This document shows, in pieces, positions 5,706 to 10,401 of a stretch of 32,113 nucleotides of DNA (its first letter is position 1; every line of letters starts with the position of its first letter). The position numbers and the translations under genes are program-made. The stretch spans positions 1 to 32,113 of the forward strand of contig QKDN01000037.1 in assembly GCA_003252535.1 (NCBI GenBank), written 5' to 3'. The notes under the pieces are model-generated. The model was not told where the DNA came from. It was given only the letters and a program-made list of their open reading frames with translations, and did no database searches. The DNA comes from Campylobacterota bacterium (lineage in GTDB: Bacteria; Campylobacterota; Campylobacteria; Campylobacterales; Sulfurovaceae).

Positions 5706-8700
5706 TCACCCCACCTCGACCAGCTGCTCATCTGGATATATTCCCAGCTCTTTGGCCTCTTCGAGGATCATTTCGCTGACGCTGTAGCGCGACTCGATGA
5801 TGACATCGGCGAGCTTGCTCTTGATGCGCAGTTCGAGCGGCCTGTTACCGGGGTGTTTCTCCACGAGACACATCAGCTCCTGGACTATCTTCGCGTCGGG
5901 CATCAGATCGAGAGCGAGGATGAGAGGCGGCTGTAGTTCCGGCTCCGGGGTGTGCTTCTCCTCTTTTTTGACCGTCACCTTCTCCTTCTTGGCATCTTTG
6001 AGCGATTCGATCTTGAGGAGGTTCATACGGGTGAACTCGCCGTCCTTGGTGATCTTGACCTTGAAGGCGATCGGCTTGGTGATGTCGAAATCCTCCTCCA
6101 GCTCCTTGAGACTCCTCTCGAAGAGCATCAGCTCGATATTGCCGTGAAGGTCCATGATATTGGCGATGCCGAACTTGTTCCCCTTCTTGGATATCTTGTG
6201 GGTGATCGTCTCGATTTTGCCGATGAAAAGCGCCTGCGAACCATCCGCGAGCTCCTCGATCTCGGAGCTGAGGGTATAGTCGATCTCGTCGAGGGTCTCG
6301 CGGTACTTGTCGAGCGGGTGCCCCGAGACATAGAATCCCAACGACTCCTTCTCGAAGTCGAGTATCTGCATCTGCTCGAACTCCTCCATATTGGCCAGCT
6401 CCAGCTCTACCGAGCTCATCATCTCCACCTCGTCGCCGAAGAGCGAACCGACGCTCATCTTCTTGGTCTGGTCGGCCTTGTGGGAGGCTTCGAGGATATC
6501 CTCTATCTGCGAGAGCATCGCGTGGCGGCTGTAGCCGAAACAGTCGAGCGCGCCTGATTTGATGAGCGCTTCGAGGACACGCTTGTTGACCTTGGAGGAG
6601 TCGATACGGGAGGCGAAGTCGGCGAGATCGCTGAACTCCCCGTCCTCCCTCGCTGCGAGGATCGAGTTGATCGCGACATCCCCGGCACCCTTGATCGCCC
6701 CCATACCGAAGATGATCGCATCCTCCCCGTCCTCTTCGGCTGCAGAGAAGACCAGATCGGAGCGGTTGACATCGGGCGGGAGGAGCTTGATCTGCATCCG
6801 TTTGAGCTCGTCGACATACTTGACGACCTTGTCGGTGTTGTTCTTCTCCAGCGTGAGGATCGCCGCCATGAACTCGCGCGGGTAGTAGCGTTTGAGGAAC
6901 GAGGTGTAGAAAGTTACCAGCGCGTAGGCTGCCGAGTGGGATTTGTTGAACCCGTAACCGGCGAACTTGACGATCAGGTCGAAGAGCTCGACCGCTTTTT
7001 GCCTGTCGAACCCCTTGGCAGCCGCTCCGTCGGCAAACTCGGACTGGAGCTTGTCCATCTCCTCCTTGATCTTCTTACCCATCGCCCGCCGTACGAGGTC
7101 GGCGCCGCCGAGGCTGAATCCCCCGATCGTCTGCACGATCTGCATGACCTGCTCCTGGTAGACGATGACCCCGTAGGTGGGTTTGAGTATGGGCTCCAGC
7201 TCCGGGAAGGCGTAGGTGATCGCCGCACGCCCGTGTTTCCGCTCGACGAAGTCGTCAAGCATCCCCGACTCCATAGGCCCCGGTCGGTAGAGGGCGAGCA
7301 TCGCGATGACATCCTCGAAGCCGTTGGGCTTGAGCTTCTTGGCGAGGTCCTGCATACCGGCCGATTCGATCTGGAAGAGTCCGAGCGTATCGCCTGTCGA
7401 GATGTAGTCGTAGACCCCCTTGTCGTTGATATCCTCCTGGATGAAGTCTATCCGTTTCCCCGTCCGCTTCTCGACGAGCTTGTTCGCCTCCTCGATCACG
7501 GTGAGGGTCTTGAGCCCGAGGAAGTCGAACTTGATCAGGTCGACATCCTCGACATATTTCCCGCTATACTGGGTCGCCAGCGTATCCATCCCCGAGGGCT
7601 TGAAGAGCGGTGTCTTGAGCCAGAGCGGTTCGTTGGAGATGACGACCCCGGCGGCGTGGGTGCCCGCGTTGCGGTTGAGTCCTTCGAGGGCGAGGGCGAA
7701 GTCCCACACCCTTTTGGCCTGCGGGTCGGATGTGAGGAGCTCCTTGATCTTGGGCTCCTTCTCGTAGGAGTTCTTGAGGTCGATACCGAGCTCGTCGGGG
7801 ATGAGCTTCGCCATCGCGTCCGCCTTGGCGTAGGGCATATCGAGCACCCTCGCGACATCGCGGATCACCCCTTTGGCGAGGAGCTTGCCGAAGGTGATGA
7901 TCTGCGCGACATTCACCCGGCCGTATTTGTTGATAACATAATCGAGTATCTCCTGGCGGCGCGCCTGGCAGAAGTCCATATCGATATCGGGCATACTTAC
8001 CCGCTCAGGATTGAGGAACCTCTCGAAAAGGAGACCGTAGGGGATCGGGTCGATGTCGGTGATCTCCAGCGCATAGGCGACGAGCGATCCTGCCGCAGAC
8101 CCCCGCCCCGGGCCGACCGGGATACCCATCTGTTTGGCGGCATTGACGAAGTCCCATACGATCAGCATATAGCCTGGGAATTTCATCGAGTTGATGATAT
8201 CGATCTCCACCCTGAGACGCTCCCGGTACTCCTCGTGCCGCTCCTCAGGGACGATCTCCAGCCTCTTCTCAAGCCCCTTTTTGGACTCCGCCTCGAAGAG
8301 TACCATATCGTTGGCGAGCGAGTACTCCACCTCGGGCTCGGGCATCTCCAGCCCCGCCTCGGCGGCTTTCTCACGGGCGAACTTGAAGTTCGGCGGCGTG
8401 GGGTTGCCCAGCTTGATCTCGAGGTTGCACTTGTCGACGATCTCCTGGGTGTTCTCGAGGGCTTCGGGGATATCGGCATAGAGGCGCGCCACCTGCTCGG
8501 GGGACTTGACATAGAACTCGTGGACGGAGTGGCGCAGACGGTTGGGGTCGTCGTAGAGTTTGTTCATCGCGATACACATGAACGCCTCGTGTGGGTCGGC
8601 ATCCTCGGGATTGGTATAGTGGGTGTCGTTGGTCGCGACGATCTTGATCCCGGTCTCCTGCGAGAGACGGATGATATCCTTGTCGATGCGGAGCTGGTCG

Positions 8701-9275
8701 CCGATACCATGGCGCATGATCTCAAGGTAGAAATCGTCGCCGAATATCTCTCTGTACTCCAGCGCGATCTTCTTCGCCTCCTCGTACCCCTTGGCTCCGT
8801 AGCCCACATTCCGCTCCGAGAGGTTGAGGTGCCAGTTGACCTCCCCCTGGAGGCAGGCGCTGGAGCAGACCAGCCCCTCAGCGTTCTCTTTGAGGAGCTT
8901 CTTGTTGATACGGGGGTAGTAGTAAAAGCCGTCGATGTAGGCGCGCGAGCTGAGGTACATGAGGTTCTTGTACCCCGCTTCGTTCTTGGCATAGAGGCAG
9001 AGGTGGAAACGCTGGCGCACGCTCTTGTCGTCGAGCTCCTCGCTGTTGTGGAGGTAGCACTCCATCCCGATGATCGGCTTGATCCCCTCCCCTTTCATCG
9101 TCTTGTAGAAGTCGATCGTCCCGAACATATTGCCGTGATCGGTCATCGCCACCGACTCCATCCCCAGCTCCTTGATCTTCTTGGCAAGCTTCTTGATCTT
9201 GTTGGCGCCATCGAGCAGTGAATACTCGGTGTGAAGATGTAGGTGGGTGAATTTGGGAGCAGCGGACTCGGACAT
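5706..9275 (-). CDS. dnaE: DNA polymerase III alpha subunit
   Basis: Replicative polymerase catalytic subunit, 1189 residues, full length. An N-terminal PHP domain begins at residue 10 (THLHLHTEYSLLDG). The family C polymerase core has catalytic aspartates in PDIDMDF (about 428-434) and in the KFDFLGLKTL segment (about 580). A helix-hairpin-helix region follows at about 810-900, then an OB-fold at about 1010-1060, and a short lysine/glutamate-rich linker before the C-terminal tau-binding part. AAAGG precedes the ATG. The leader contains the 16-bp inverted repeat at 9305-9379. No terminator is visible after the stop, so readthrough into the toxin-antitoxin operon on the same strand is possible. 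Confidence 0.97.
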   Translation of the reverse strand: MSESAAPKFTHLHLHTEYSLLDGANKIKKLAKKIKELGMESVAMTDHGNMFGTIDFYKTMKGEGIKPIIGMECYLHNSEELDDKSVRQRFHLCLYAKNEAGYKNLMYLSSRAYIDGFYYYPRINKKLLKENAEGLVCSSACLQGEVNWHLNLSERNVGYGAKGYEEAKKIALEYREIFGDDFYLEIMRHGIGDQLRIDKDIIRLSQETGIKIVATNDTHYTNPEDADPHEAFMCIAMNKLYDDPNRLRHSVHEFYVKSPEQVARLYADIPEALENTQEIVDKCNLEIKLGNPTPPNFKFAREKAAEAGLEMPEPEVEYSLANDMVLFEAESKKGLEKRLEIVPEERHEEYRERLRVEIDIINSMKFPGYMLIVWDFVNAAKQMGIPVGPGRGSAAGSLVAYALEITDIDPIPYGLLFERFLNPERVSMPDIDMDFCQARRQEILDYVINKYGRVNVAQIITFGKLLAKGVIRDVARVLDMPYAKADAMAKLIPDELGIDLKNSYEKEPKIKELLTSDPQAKRVWDFALALEGLNRNAGTHAAGVVISNEPLWLKTPLFKPSGMDTLATQYSGKYVEDVDLIKFDFLGLKTLTVIEEANKLVEKRTGKRIDFIQEDINDKGVYDYISTGDTLGLFQIESAGMQDLAKKLKPNGFEDVIAMLALYRPGPMESGMLDDFVERKHGRAAITYAFPELEPILKPTYGVIVYQEQVMQIVQTIGGFSLGGADLVRRAMGKKIKEEMDKLQSEFADGAAAKGFDRQKAVELFDLIVKFAGYGFNKSHSAAYALVTFYTSFLKRYYPREFMAAILTLEKNNTDKVVKYVDELKRMQIKLLPPDVNRSDLVFSAAEEDGEDAIIFGMGAIKGAGDVAINSILAAREDGEFSDLADFASRIDSSKVNKRVLEALIKSGALDCFGYSRHAMLSQIEDILEASHKADQTKKMSVGSLFGDEVEMMSSVELELANMEEFEQMQILDFEKESLGFYVSGHPLDKYRETLDEIDYTLSSEIEELADGSQALFIGKIETITHKISKKGNKFGIANIMDLHGNIELMLFERSLKELEEDFDITKPIAFKVKITKDGEFTRMNLLKIESLKDAKKEKVTVKKEEKHTPEPELQPPLILALDLMPDAKIVQELMCLVEKHPGNRPLELRIKSKLADVIIESRYSVSEMILEEAKELGIYPDEQLVEVG

Positions 9276-9304
9276 AGCGTACCTTTGGATTGTATTTATA
9301 ACTT

Positions 9305-9379
9305 ATTTCTTGCATAACCTACTTGAGAGGCTCAGACCGAAGGGAGGATTTGCCCTCGAAAGGAGGTTATGCAAGAAAT
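9305..9379. repeat. 75-bp element with perfect 16-bp inverted ends
   Basis: Arms ATTTCTTGCATAACCT (9305-9320) and AGGTTATGCAAGAAAT (9364-9379) are perfectly complementary. The 43 bases between them can form two further small hairpins (TTGAG/CTCAG at 9323-9335 and GAGG/CCTC at 9344-9357), giving a cloverleaf-like fold. The element lies in the dnaE leader, 30 bases upstream of its start codon, and between the candidate promoter at 9405-9413 and the gene. No run of T follows on either strand. It may be a regulatory leader structure or a small non-autonomous mobile element; no target-site duplication is visible. Confidence 0.75.
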
Positions 9380-9404
9380 CAAGCGATTATTGATAGTTAC
9401 GCGG

Positions 9405-9413: not shown

Positions 9414-9522
9414 GAGTTTTGGTAAAGAGGGCATAAAAAATCCCCTGTAGTCTCTGCACATATAAATAGATTATTGCATTTTGAAATATTTTTGGATTAT
9501 TGAGAAAAAGTTTGGCTACACT

Positions 9523-9531
9523 TGCTATAGT
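9523..9531 (+). promoter_or_regulatory. Extended -10 promoter for the 19-residue peptide
   Basis: TGCTATAGT is one mismatch from an ideal extended -10. The predicted start, near 9538, gives a 70-base leader to the small hydrophobic ORF. It overlaps GTCAGTTGG (9530-9538), which is repeated in inverted form as CCAACTGAC at 9702-9710. Confidence 0.5.
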
Positions 9532-9608
9532 CAGTTGGCGATTGGATGTATGGTTACATTGCGAGGCGTGAGGTGGGACAGGGTCAGCCTTCAATAAAGG
9601 ATGTAACA

Positions 9609-9668
9609 ATGCGACTAGCCATCATAATTGTTATTCTTCTGTTGCTCTTAGCGACAAAAGTCTATTAA
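9609..9668 (+). CDS. Candidate 19-residue membrane peptide
   Basis: MRLAIIIVILLLLLATKVY: one continuous hydrophobic stretch with a basic residue at each end, long enough to span a membrane. A strong ribosome-binding site (AAAGGATG, 9597-9603) lies 5 bases upstream, and a candidate promoter precedes it. In the leader GTTACATT (9553-9560) can pair with GATGTAAC (9600-9607) and would mask that site. A strong hairpin follows the stop at 9675-9696. It matches no small protein I recognise; a type I toxin or a regulatory small membrane protein are both possible. Codon evidence is too short to be decisive. Confidence 0.5.
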   Translation: MRLAIIIVILLLLLATKVY

Positions 9669-9674
9669 AAGCTT

Positions 9675-9696
9675 GCAGAGAGTGGGGACTCTCTGC
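9675..9696 (+). other. Strong hairpin after the small peptide ORF
   Basis: GCAGAGAGT, loop GGGG, ACTCTCTGC: a perfect 9-bp stem. There is no T tract, so it is not a canonical intrinsic terminator. The loop and following bases allow a competing stem (TGGGG with CCCCA at 9699-9704), so two alternative folds exist. It could stabilise the 3' end of a short transcript. Confidence 0.65.
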
Positions 9697-9762
9697 CTGC
9701 CCCAACTGACGGTATTATATCATAAATCTACCGAAATCTCAAAAATTCTCACTCCCAATCTA

Positions 9763-9792: not shown

Positions 9793-10401
9793 ATGAACAC
9801 CGTCACATTCAATGAGCGGCAGCTCCCCGTCCCCAAGGTCGTCTGCGTGGGGCGTAACTATGTCGAGCATATCGAGGAGCTCGGCAACGAGATGCCCGAC
9901 TCCATGGTGCTCTTCAACAAACCCAACAGCGCCATCACCCCAGAGCTCCGCTACTTCTCCGAGCACTGCCGCTTCGAGGGGGAGATATGCTTCCTGATCC
10001 GGGATGGGAGGATGGCAGGGGTCGGCTTCGGACTCGACCTCACCCACGCCGATATCCAGAATGGTCTCAAGGCCAAGGGACTGCCGTGGGAGCGCGCCAA
10101 AGCCTTCGACGGCTCGGCGATCTTCAGCCCCTTCGTCCCCCTCGCCGACCCTTTCGAGAGCCTCTCGATGAAGCTCTTTATCAACGGCGAGCTCATCCAG
10201 CACGCCACCTACGATCTGATGATCTACAAACCTCAGACGATCCTCGAAGAGATAGCGACATTCCAGACCCTTCAGGAGAACGATATCATTATGAGCGGCA
10301 CCCCCAAAGGGGTAGCGACCTACAGCAGGGGTGACAGGTTCGTCGGGGAGATATATGCCGGGGAGAAGCTGCTGGTATCGGGCGAGTGGGTCGTGGAGTA
10401 A
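9793..10401 (+). CDS. Fumarylacetoacetate hydrolase-family protein
   Basis: Member of the FAH superfamily, 202 residues, similar in size to YcgM/FAHD1 acylpyruvate hydrolases. Typical segments: VVCVGRNYVEHIEELGNE with the substrate-binding arginine/asparagine/tyrosine, the metal-binding FEGEICF glutamates, DLTHAD with the third acidic ligand, KAFDGSA, and the C-terminal GTPKGVA loop. Related enzymes hydrolyse acylpyruvates, decarboxylate oxaloacetate or tautomerise it, so substrate cannot be fixed from sequence. AAAAGG lies 8 bases upstream of the ATG. It is followed after 2 bases by the homoserine kinase gene and probably co-transcribed with it. Confidence 0.9.
   Translation: MNTVTFNERQLPVPKVVCVGRNYVEHIEELGNEMPDSMVLFNKPNSAITPELRYFSEHCRFEGEICFLIRDGRMAGVGFGLDLTHADIQNGLKAKGLPWERAKAFDGSAIFSPFVPLADPFESLSMKLFINGELIQHATYDLMIYKPQTILEEIATFQTLQENDIIMSGTPKGVATYSRGDRFVGEIYAGEKLLVSGEWVVE

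Follow-up and report, generated by a model that had tools for sequence, protein, structure and literature searches.

What is the element of about 180 bp that, in this Campylobacterota genome, is flanked by dnaE (5706-9275, minus strand) and by an ORF that ends at 10401 on the plus strand? The window, i.e., the whole stretch of DNA that was analysed (32,113 nt), belongs to an assembly of 2.92 Mb in 77 contigs. A preliminary description of the window had proposed a tiny membrane peptide whose mRNA masks its own ribosome-binding site, in the manner of type I toxin mRNAs such as AapA of Helicobacter. The elements on which it drew, namely the ORF, its Shine-Dalgarno (SD) sequence, a 3' hairpin (9675-9682 with 9689-9696) and a 9-bp inverted repeat (9530-9538 with 9702-9710), are all present, exact to the base. 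Comparison across relatives establishes a conserved hydrophobic ORF, promoters on both strands, and covarying helices that sequester the start region and pair the two ends of the mRNA. The element is probably a chromosomal type I toxin-antitoxin locus distantly related to Ibs/Sib of Escherichia coli, with expression and toxicity as predictions of this reading. No Rfam family reached its gathering score in the window. Weak matches to STnc350, SraG and FsrA in the window search, and to Flavo-1 and others in a search of loci from the same genome, were taken for chance.

A conserved hydrophobic reading frame

9609-9668, plus strand: toxin ORF MRLAIIIVILLLLLATKVY, 19 aa, ATG to TAA, with coding constraint in 42 members
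9596-9601, plus strand: Shine-Dalgarno sequence AAAGGA, read from the sequence

A script caught 42 intact, distinct members of the family, 28 encoding peptides of 19 aa and 14 encoding peptides of 20 aa, all with a TAA stop codon. The third-last residue is Lys or Arg in every one of these, specified by AAA, AAG, AGA, AGG, CGA or CGG, and the last is Tyr in 40 and Phe in 2. Absent from the 42 are L005 and L182, which represent the same frameshifted copy, and L118, in which the ORF is intact and the start codon is shifted, so that the pattern missed it; L007 was left out of A1/A2. The locus therefore has the short hydrophobic ORF under coding constraint that a type I toxin-antitoxin system requires.

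Conservation of ORF and pairing in relatives, which the preliminary description had named as a check, is borne out by the 42 intact ORFs and by helices that covary over 26 relatives. The contrary pattern that it had named, a broken ORF with the structures kept, occurs once: a copy on contig C40 of the same genome (L005) carries a 4-nt deletion in the ORF and has intact RNA features, while the other full-length members keep the ORF. Inserts with inverted ends split a further copy from this genome (L010, C1:49787-50274) and one from a relative (G001:C196; L021/L022/L115); another two loci are fragments. Loss of the toxin does occur, and retention is the rule among full-length members. At C40, C1 and G001:C196, the toxin appears to have been lost repeatedly with RNA parts remaining.

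Promoters on both strands

9714-9719, minus strand: antisense -10 hexamer TATAAT
9737-9742, minus strand: antisense -35 hexamer TTGAGA
9571-9707, minus strand: predicted antitoxin antisense RNA of about 137 nt, its start placed from the -10 hexamer and its 3' end from the closing helix
9517-9522, plus strand: toxin -10 hexamer TACACT at the family position; a rival hexamer, TATAGT, lies at 9526-9531
9530-9710, plus strand: toxin mRNA unit, the full span of the covariance model, with a putative start near 9530 and a 3' end at or beyond 9710 if the outer helix forms

The preliminary description does not mention a minus-strand promoter, TTGAGA-17-TATAAT (9742-9714), whose -35 and -10 hexamers agree with consensus at 11 of 12 positions. 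The -10 hexamer is exactly TATAAT in 42 of 43 members and matches at five of six positions in the remaining one; it sits 46-51 nt beyond the stop codon and, in members with both flanks, a constant 6-8 nt before AGTTGGG. With an exact TATAAT so regularly placed beyond the toxin, an antisense RNA should begin near 9707 and span the ORF. The antisense strand folds at -53.9 kcal/mol (z -4.5), a value that none of 200 shuffles equalled, and its closing helix is kept in 26 of 26 relatives at all but one of nine pairs. Promoter and fold together point to an antisense RNA gene overlapping the toxin mRNA, the RNA itself being a prediction.

The sense promoter is less well conserved than the antisense promoter across the 43 members. 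The best sense -10 hexamer matches at five or more of six positions in 33 of 43 members (shuffled mean 16.7, maximum 25), and ends 8-10 nt upstream of AGTTGG in 36 of 43. The earlier choice of TATAGT as the candidate promoter, with a possible start at 9538 that would leave the outer repeat partly outside the RNA, does not agree with this position. In the window TATAGT (5/6) is closer to consensus than TACACT (4/6) but lies off the family position; with TACACT as the -10 hexamer the mRNA would start near 9530, and the outer repeat would fall inside the RNA. No recognisable terminator was found at the locus for either the toxin mRNA or the antisense RNA.

The better conservation of the antisense promoter could also mean that the antisense RNA is the working part, regulating other genes, with the ORF left as a remnant, a view that has been put forward for IsoB/NikS. 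The broken ORF and intact RNA of the C40 copy would suit such a reading, and IsoB/NikS with AapB of H. pylori offers a precedent, being likewise an antisense RNA whose type I locus has a weak ORF. That system is described as probably degenerated, whereas the ORF is conserved here; the other full-length members keep it and preserve its charge by way of different codons. A relic ORF is accordingly considered very improbable.

Folding of the toxin mRNA

9530-9538, plus strand: 5' arm of the long-distance (outer) helix, with three pairs changed on both sides
9702-9710, plus strand: 3' arm of the same helix, the exact 9-bp inverted repeat of the 5' arm, with covariation and wobble
9557-9561, plus strand: leader CAUUG, able to cover the start codon region
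9572-9588, plus strand: conserved leader block GGTGGGACAGGGTCAGC
9588-9600, plus strand: local anti-SD hairpin CCUU-CAAUA-AAGG, read from the sequence
9603-9634, plus strand: start codon hairpin, GUAACAAU (9603-9610) with AUUGUUAU (9627-9634) in the ORF, 96.6% paired and nearly invariant
9636-9660, plus strand: ORF-internal hairpin, double changes in 6 of 9 pairs
9675-9696, plus strand: 3' hairpin GCAGAGAG/CUCUCUGC, which is also the 5' hairpin of the antisense RNA, double changes in 6 of 8 pairs

Taken as a single sequence, the sense strand folds at -56.8 kcal/mol (z -2.0; equalled by 5 of 200 shuffles), only modestly above shuffles. The folds are nonetheless regarded as real, because conservation settles the matter. 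Four sense helices comprising 34 pairs were taken from RNAalifold and tested for covariation over 26 aligned relatives. Paired cells amount to 92.9% against 83.9% in shuffles, double-changed cells to 98 against 35.8, and covariation to 0.357 against 0.190, with none of 500 shuffles as high by any of these measures. The contrast is smaller for the number of pairs that show double changes (15 against 12.7; 25 of 500 shuffles). When helix partners are slid by 1-3 columns, pairing falls to 35-54%.

The outer 5'-3' helix is the best supported of all. The preliminary description had held only the inner pairing to be secure; the evidence runs the other way, with the outer helix 95.7% paired and covarying, and the inner pairing only partly conserved. 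Wobble cells in the outer helix, counted over 43 sequences, suit the mRNA in 22 cases and the antisense strand in 3, so that this helix most likely works in the mRNA. As for the inner pairing, GTTACATT (9553-9560) can indeed pair with GATGTAAC at the SD (9600-9607) through seven standard pairs and one G-U, but GTTACATT itself lacks conservation. What the members share is (C/U)AUUG(U) opposite ACAAUG of the start codon region, where 95.5% of cells are paired; covariation for this CAUUGU/ACAAUG cover is weak, 48 of 500 shuffles being as good. The SD register varies from member to member, and the anti-SD hairpin was for that reason excluded from helix scoring. For the GGGACAG/CUGUCCC helix the strand evidence is mixed. 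Its single variable inner pair is G-U when read as antisense RNA, but when read as mRNA it is a mismatch in 6 of 26 relatives; counted across 43 sequences, however, wobbles in the whole helix favour the sense strand, 16 to 9. Judged by covariation, the primary toxin mRNA is predicted to fold so that its ribosome site is hidden, the leader cover of the start codon being the weaker component.

Copy number and distribution

The leader motif marks nine places in the genome that hosts the window, and 9530-9710 is one of these nine leader-bearing copies. A DNA search of the same genome recovered other copies, 72-88% identical, including one that an insert has split; these were found by plain similarity, independently of the leader motif. 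Conservation of the leader outside the genus partly reflects how members were chosen, since most such members were found through the motif itself. Ten genomes of the genus were searched by DNA similarity, and 3 were positive, the window's own included. A covariance model built on 26 members (R1) was positive in 10 of 397 genomes and 3 of 68 genera drawn from the class; it undercounts copies there because only six candidates were scored per genome. The leader motif was sought in the window's family, where 8 of 175 genomes have it, and in a second family, where 32 of 228 do; read backwards, the pattern occurs in none. Relatives were found only in these two Campylobacterota families, in records labelled as Sulfurimonas, Sulfurovum, Helicobacteraceae and Epsilonproteobacteria genomes. 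The cultured species Sulfurimonas indica is among the carriers. One Sulfurovum-like genome (G292) holds at least 12 copies, of which the motif marks ten and a further two lie at C55 and C47. Tandem copies are present within the family. The family is thus multicopy in deep-branching relatives of Helicobacter.

Across genome contigs the leader pattern marks at least 114 loci, and the matches listed include 15 members and the interrupted copy L115. Membership was judged by ORF and promoter, and the remaining 98 loci among the matches listed were taken for chance. None of 19 viral loci with the leader pattern is a member; one viral peptide (L148) passed one filter, scored z -0.17 for likeness to Ibs, and was dropped before the DNA-likeness, coding and promoter counts. 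Plasmids and phages were searched with no match.

The 5' end of dnaE was located in seven genomes of the genus, the window's own included, and the leader or 3' motif lies nearby only in the latter; in two of the other six, the locus stops a short distance from dnaE. This pattern, together with the patchy spread, suggests gain, loss or movement of the element. Nine copies, inverted ends, patchy spread and a dnaE site without a copy in the loci of six relatives would all be expected of a short mobile element that is bounded by inverted repeats and contains an ORF by chance. The ends covary between copies rather than being fixed, however, and such a repeat would account neither for the coding constraint nor for two conserved promoters. 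By the coding and covariation counts this reading is already largely refuted, and it is held to be the least probable of those considered.

Other repeats were also noted. A second repeat, about 75 bp long, lies upstream of dnaE at 9304-9388 in the window; its arms are ATTTCTTGCATAACCT/AGGTTATGCAAGAAAT and its core is near GGCTCAGACCGAAGGGAGGATTTGCC. The genome has five long copies of it and six core-only matches, and nine other genomes of the genus have none. In G292, several copies (L185, L186 and L188) have in their flanks strong hairpins of the form TAGGTCGGAGT...ACTCCGACCTA, or repeats related to them, and these resemble a separate repeat family.

Relationship to Ibs/Sib and AapA/IsoA

The preliminary description placed the locus with AapA-like toxin mRNAs. 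The general kind stands, as do the self-hidden ribosome site and an AapA3-like logic of folding, but Ibs/Sib is the better fit for the peptide, the antisense promoter's position and the anatomy. The five Ibs peptides of E. coli K-12 are 18-19 aa long and end in Tyr, and those described here are hydrophobic, 19-20 aa long, and mostly end in Tyr. For the five annotated Sib RNAs the start lies 35-40 nt beyond the stop codon of Ibs; the antisense start predicted from the -10 hexamer lies 39 nt past the stop, within that range, and the RNA would likewise begin with a 5' hairpin and cover both ORF and SD. Both families are multicopy and partly tandem (sibA-B and sibD-E in E. coli). Differences include the conserved C-terminal Lys/Arg, which is absent from the five K-12 Ibs peptides, the conserved leader block and covarying 5'-3' helix, the lack of a recognisable terminator at the antisense 3' end, and scores below the cut-offs of Rfam RF00113 and Pfam PF13956.

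Likeness of the peptides to Ibs exceeds that expected from composition (mean z 3.5 over 43 peptides, including one false positive at -0.17), and none of 1000 joint column permutations of four 19-aa Ibs sequences reached the observed value. DNA sequences resemble each other slightly more than the peptides alone would explain, with 12 of 500 synonymous shuffles as good. When one member was compared with 4227 Rfam families, SIB_RNA ranked first (24.2 bits, E 0.012), with promoter, stop, start and SD aligned in register; this was the best score of any member and falls short of the RF00113 gathering score of 56. Among 14 control genomes, E. coli alone exceeded the SIB_RNA cut-off. In 12 carrier genomes 18 of 36 SIB_RNA matches fall on members, all on the antisense strand and in four first-family genomes; none of the 12 matches in eight second-family genomes falls on a member, and the model misses the window's own copy and, in one search, seven loci of its genome. 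SIB_RNA matches outside the family lack family features where the sequence was examined, with G393:C11, G004:C77 and G292:C44 judged by position only. For the Pfam Ibs_toxin model (PF13956), the better of two matches in the window's genome is the window ORF itself (12.1 bits, below the cut-off of 27), and 2 of 8 matches across six genomes are members; ten 20-aa members gave no Ibs match in Pfam (hmmscan) or NCBIfam.

Searches in the reverse direction gave a similar picture. A DNA profile of 43 antisense sequences run against 15 kb of E. coli placed the five Sib genes at the head of six matches, and against 150 kb it ranked SibA 1, SibC 2, SibD 3, SibE 5 and SibB 8, with SibA at 15.9 bits (E 0.00084). 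A column-reversed control ranked SibE, SibD and SibC 2nd, 4th and 5th at 2.8-4.4 bits in the same 150 kb, so that part of the likeness is composition. A promoter-only model found no Sib gene, and an ORF-only model found four at ranks 3, 8, 12 and 13, without singling them out. The structure model R1 gave 45 weak matches in E. coli, which include the ibsA locus at 10.3 bits and the ibsC locus at 7.0.

These results could instead reflect a Campylobacterota type I toxin-antitoxin family unrelated by descent to Ibs/Sib, in which peptide and layout have converged. The choice of Sib loci by the reversed control, database matches that all lie below cut-off, second-family members without SIB_RNA matches, and the missing C-terminal Lys/Arg in the five K-12 Ibs peptides would all be in keeping with convergence. 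The in-register SIB_RNA alignment over promoter, start, stop and SD, forward scores that reach 15.9 bits where the control reaches 4.4, and the equal spacing from stop codon to antisense start argue for common ancestry. Convergence is rather unlikely on this balance, and shared descent with Ibs/Sib is probable from the sequence comparisons, with real doubt left.

Membership in AapA/IsoA of Helicobacter would be attractive for a locus of the same phylum. The aapA3 mRNA forms an upstream anti-SD hairpin, then an ORF-internal one, then a 5'-3' helix, and is opened by 3' trimming (PMC6733600). The order of elements is similar here, where a CCUU/AAGG hairpin is followed by pairing of the start region with ORF codons and then by the outer helix; the 5'-3' long-distance helix of the toxin mRNA, a trait of AapA/IsoA, is present, as are an antisense antitoxin, in prediction, and a positively charged C terminus. 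The aapA3 antisense promoter can be disabled by synonymous mutations (PMC6733600), which places it inside the ORF, whereas here it lies at 9714-9742, beyond the stop codon at 9668. AapA1 has 30 aa (PMC8309996), against 19-20 aa here. The locus layout also differs, the comparison resting on descriptions rather than on an AapA sequence, and in the class draw only 3 of 68 genera carry the family. Placement with AapA/IsoA thus has very little probability.

A model of toxin control

Under the preferred reading, a distant relative of Ibs/Sib, the nascent mRNA would hide its SD in the local hairpin at 9588-9600 and its start codon in the hairpin with ORF codons. In the complete mRNA, the 5' end (9530-9538) would lock onto 9702-9710 and leave the transcript inert until trimming opens it. 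The antisense RNA (about 9707 to 9571) would then pair across ORF, start codon and SD, and block or destroy the opened mRNA. Should the antisense RNA fall, the peptide may enter the inner membrane and depolarise it, leading to growth arrest. This action is borrowed from IbsC, which depolarises membranes, and the blocking step from that of Sib on ibs, as given in reviews (PMC8309996; PMC4147584).

A broader reading is possible, and as a whole must be regarded as doubtful. It holds that Ibs/Sib is an old or travelling family extending beyond enteric bacteria, with a Campylobacterota branch that has AapA-style kinetic folding and links two systems regarded as distinct. Because of the inverted repeat both RNAs would begin with nearly identical letters, and the antitoxin 5' end would mimic that of the mRNA and compete for its 3' arm. 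If the preferred reading is right, a toxin-antitoxin pair that to our knowledge is otherwise confined to enteric bacteria would have a large branch in another phylum, living in environmental sulfur bacteria at up to a dozen copies per genome and missed by the curated models (Rfam, Pfam). The family would also provide a natural comparison set, with covariation, for the silence of toxin mRNAs during synthesis, a subject examined closely in H. pylori aapA3 (PMC6733600). Among the papers listed in a literature search, none deals with such a family in these bacteria; this is weak evidence, as the main primary Ibs/Sib papers fell outside its coverage, and the novelty of the link is not established.

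The broader reading would also include transcriptional control of the toxin through an additional element.

9472-9492, plus strand: dyad TATTGCATTTTGAAATATTTT, candidate operator upstream of the toxin promoter

The dyad consensus TATKNCAWWNTGNMATATTTT scores at least 16 of 18 in 18 of 47 members, always starting 58-62 nt before AGTTGG, and at least 13 in 24 of 47 (shuffled mean 9.5, maximum 16), the consensus having been fitted to the same data that it scores. The halves of the dyad vary together in some copies (TTGCA/TGCAA, TGACA/TGTCA, TGGCA/TGCCA), which is odd for a protein site.
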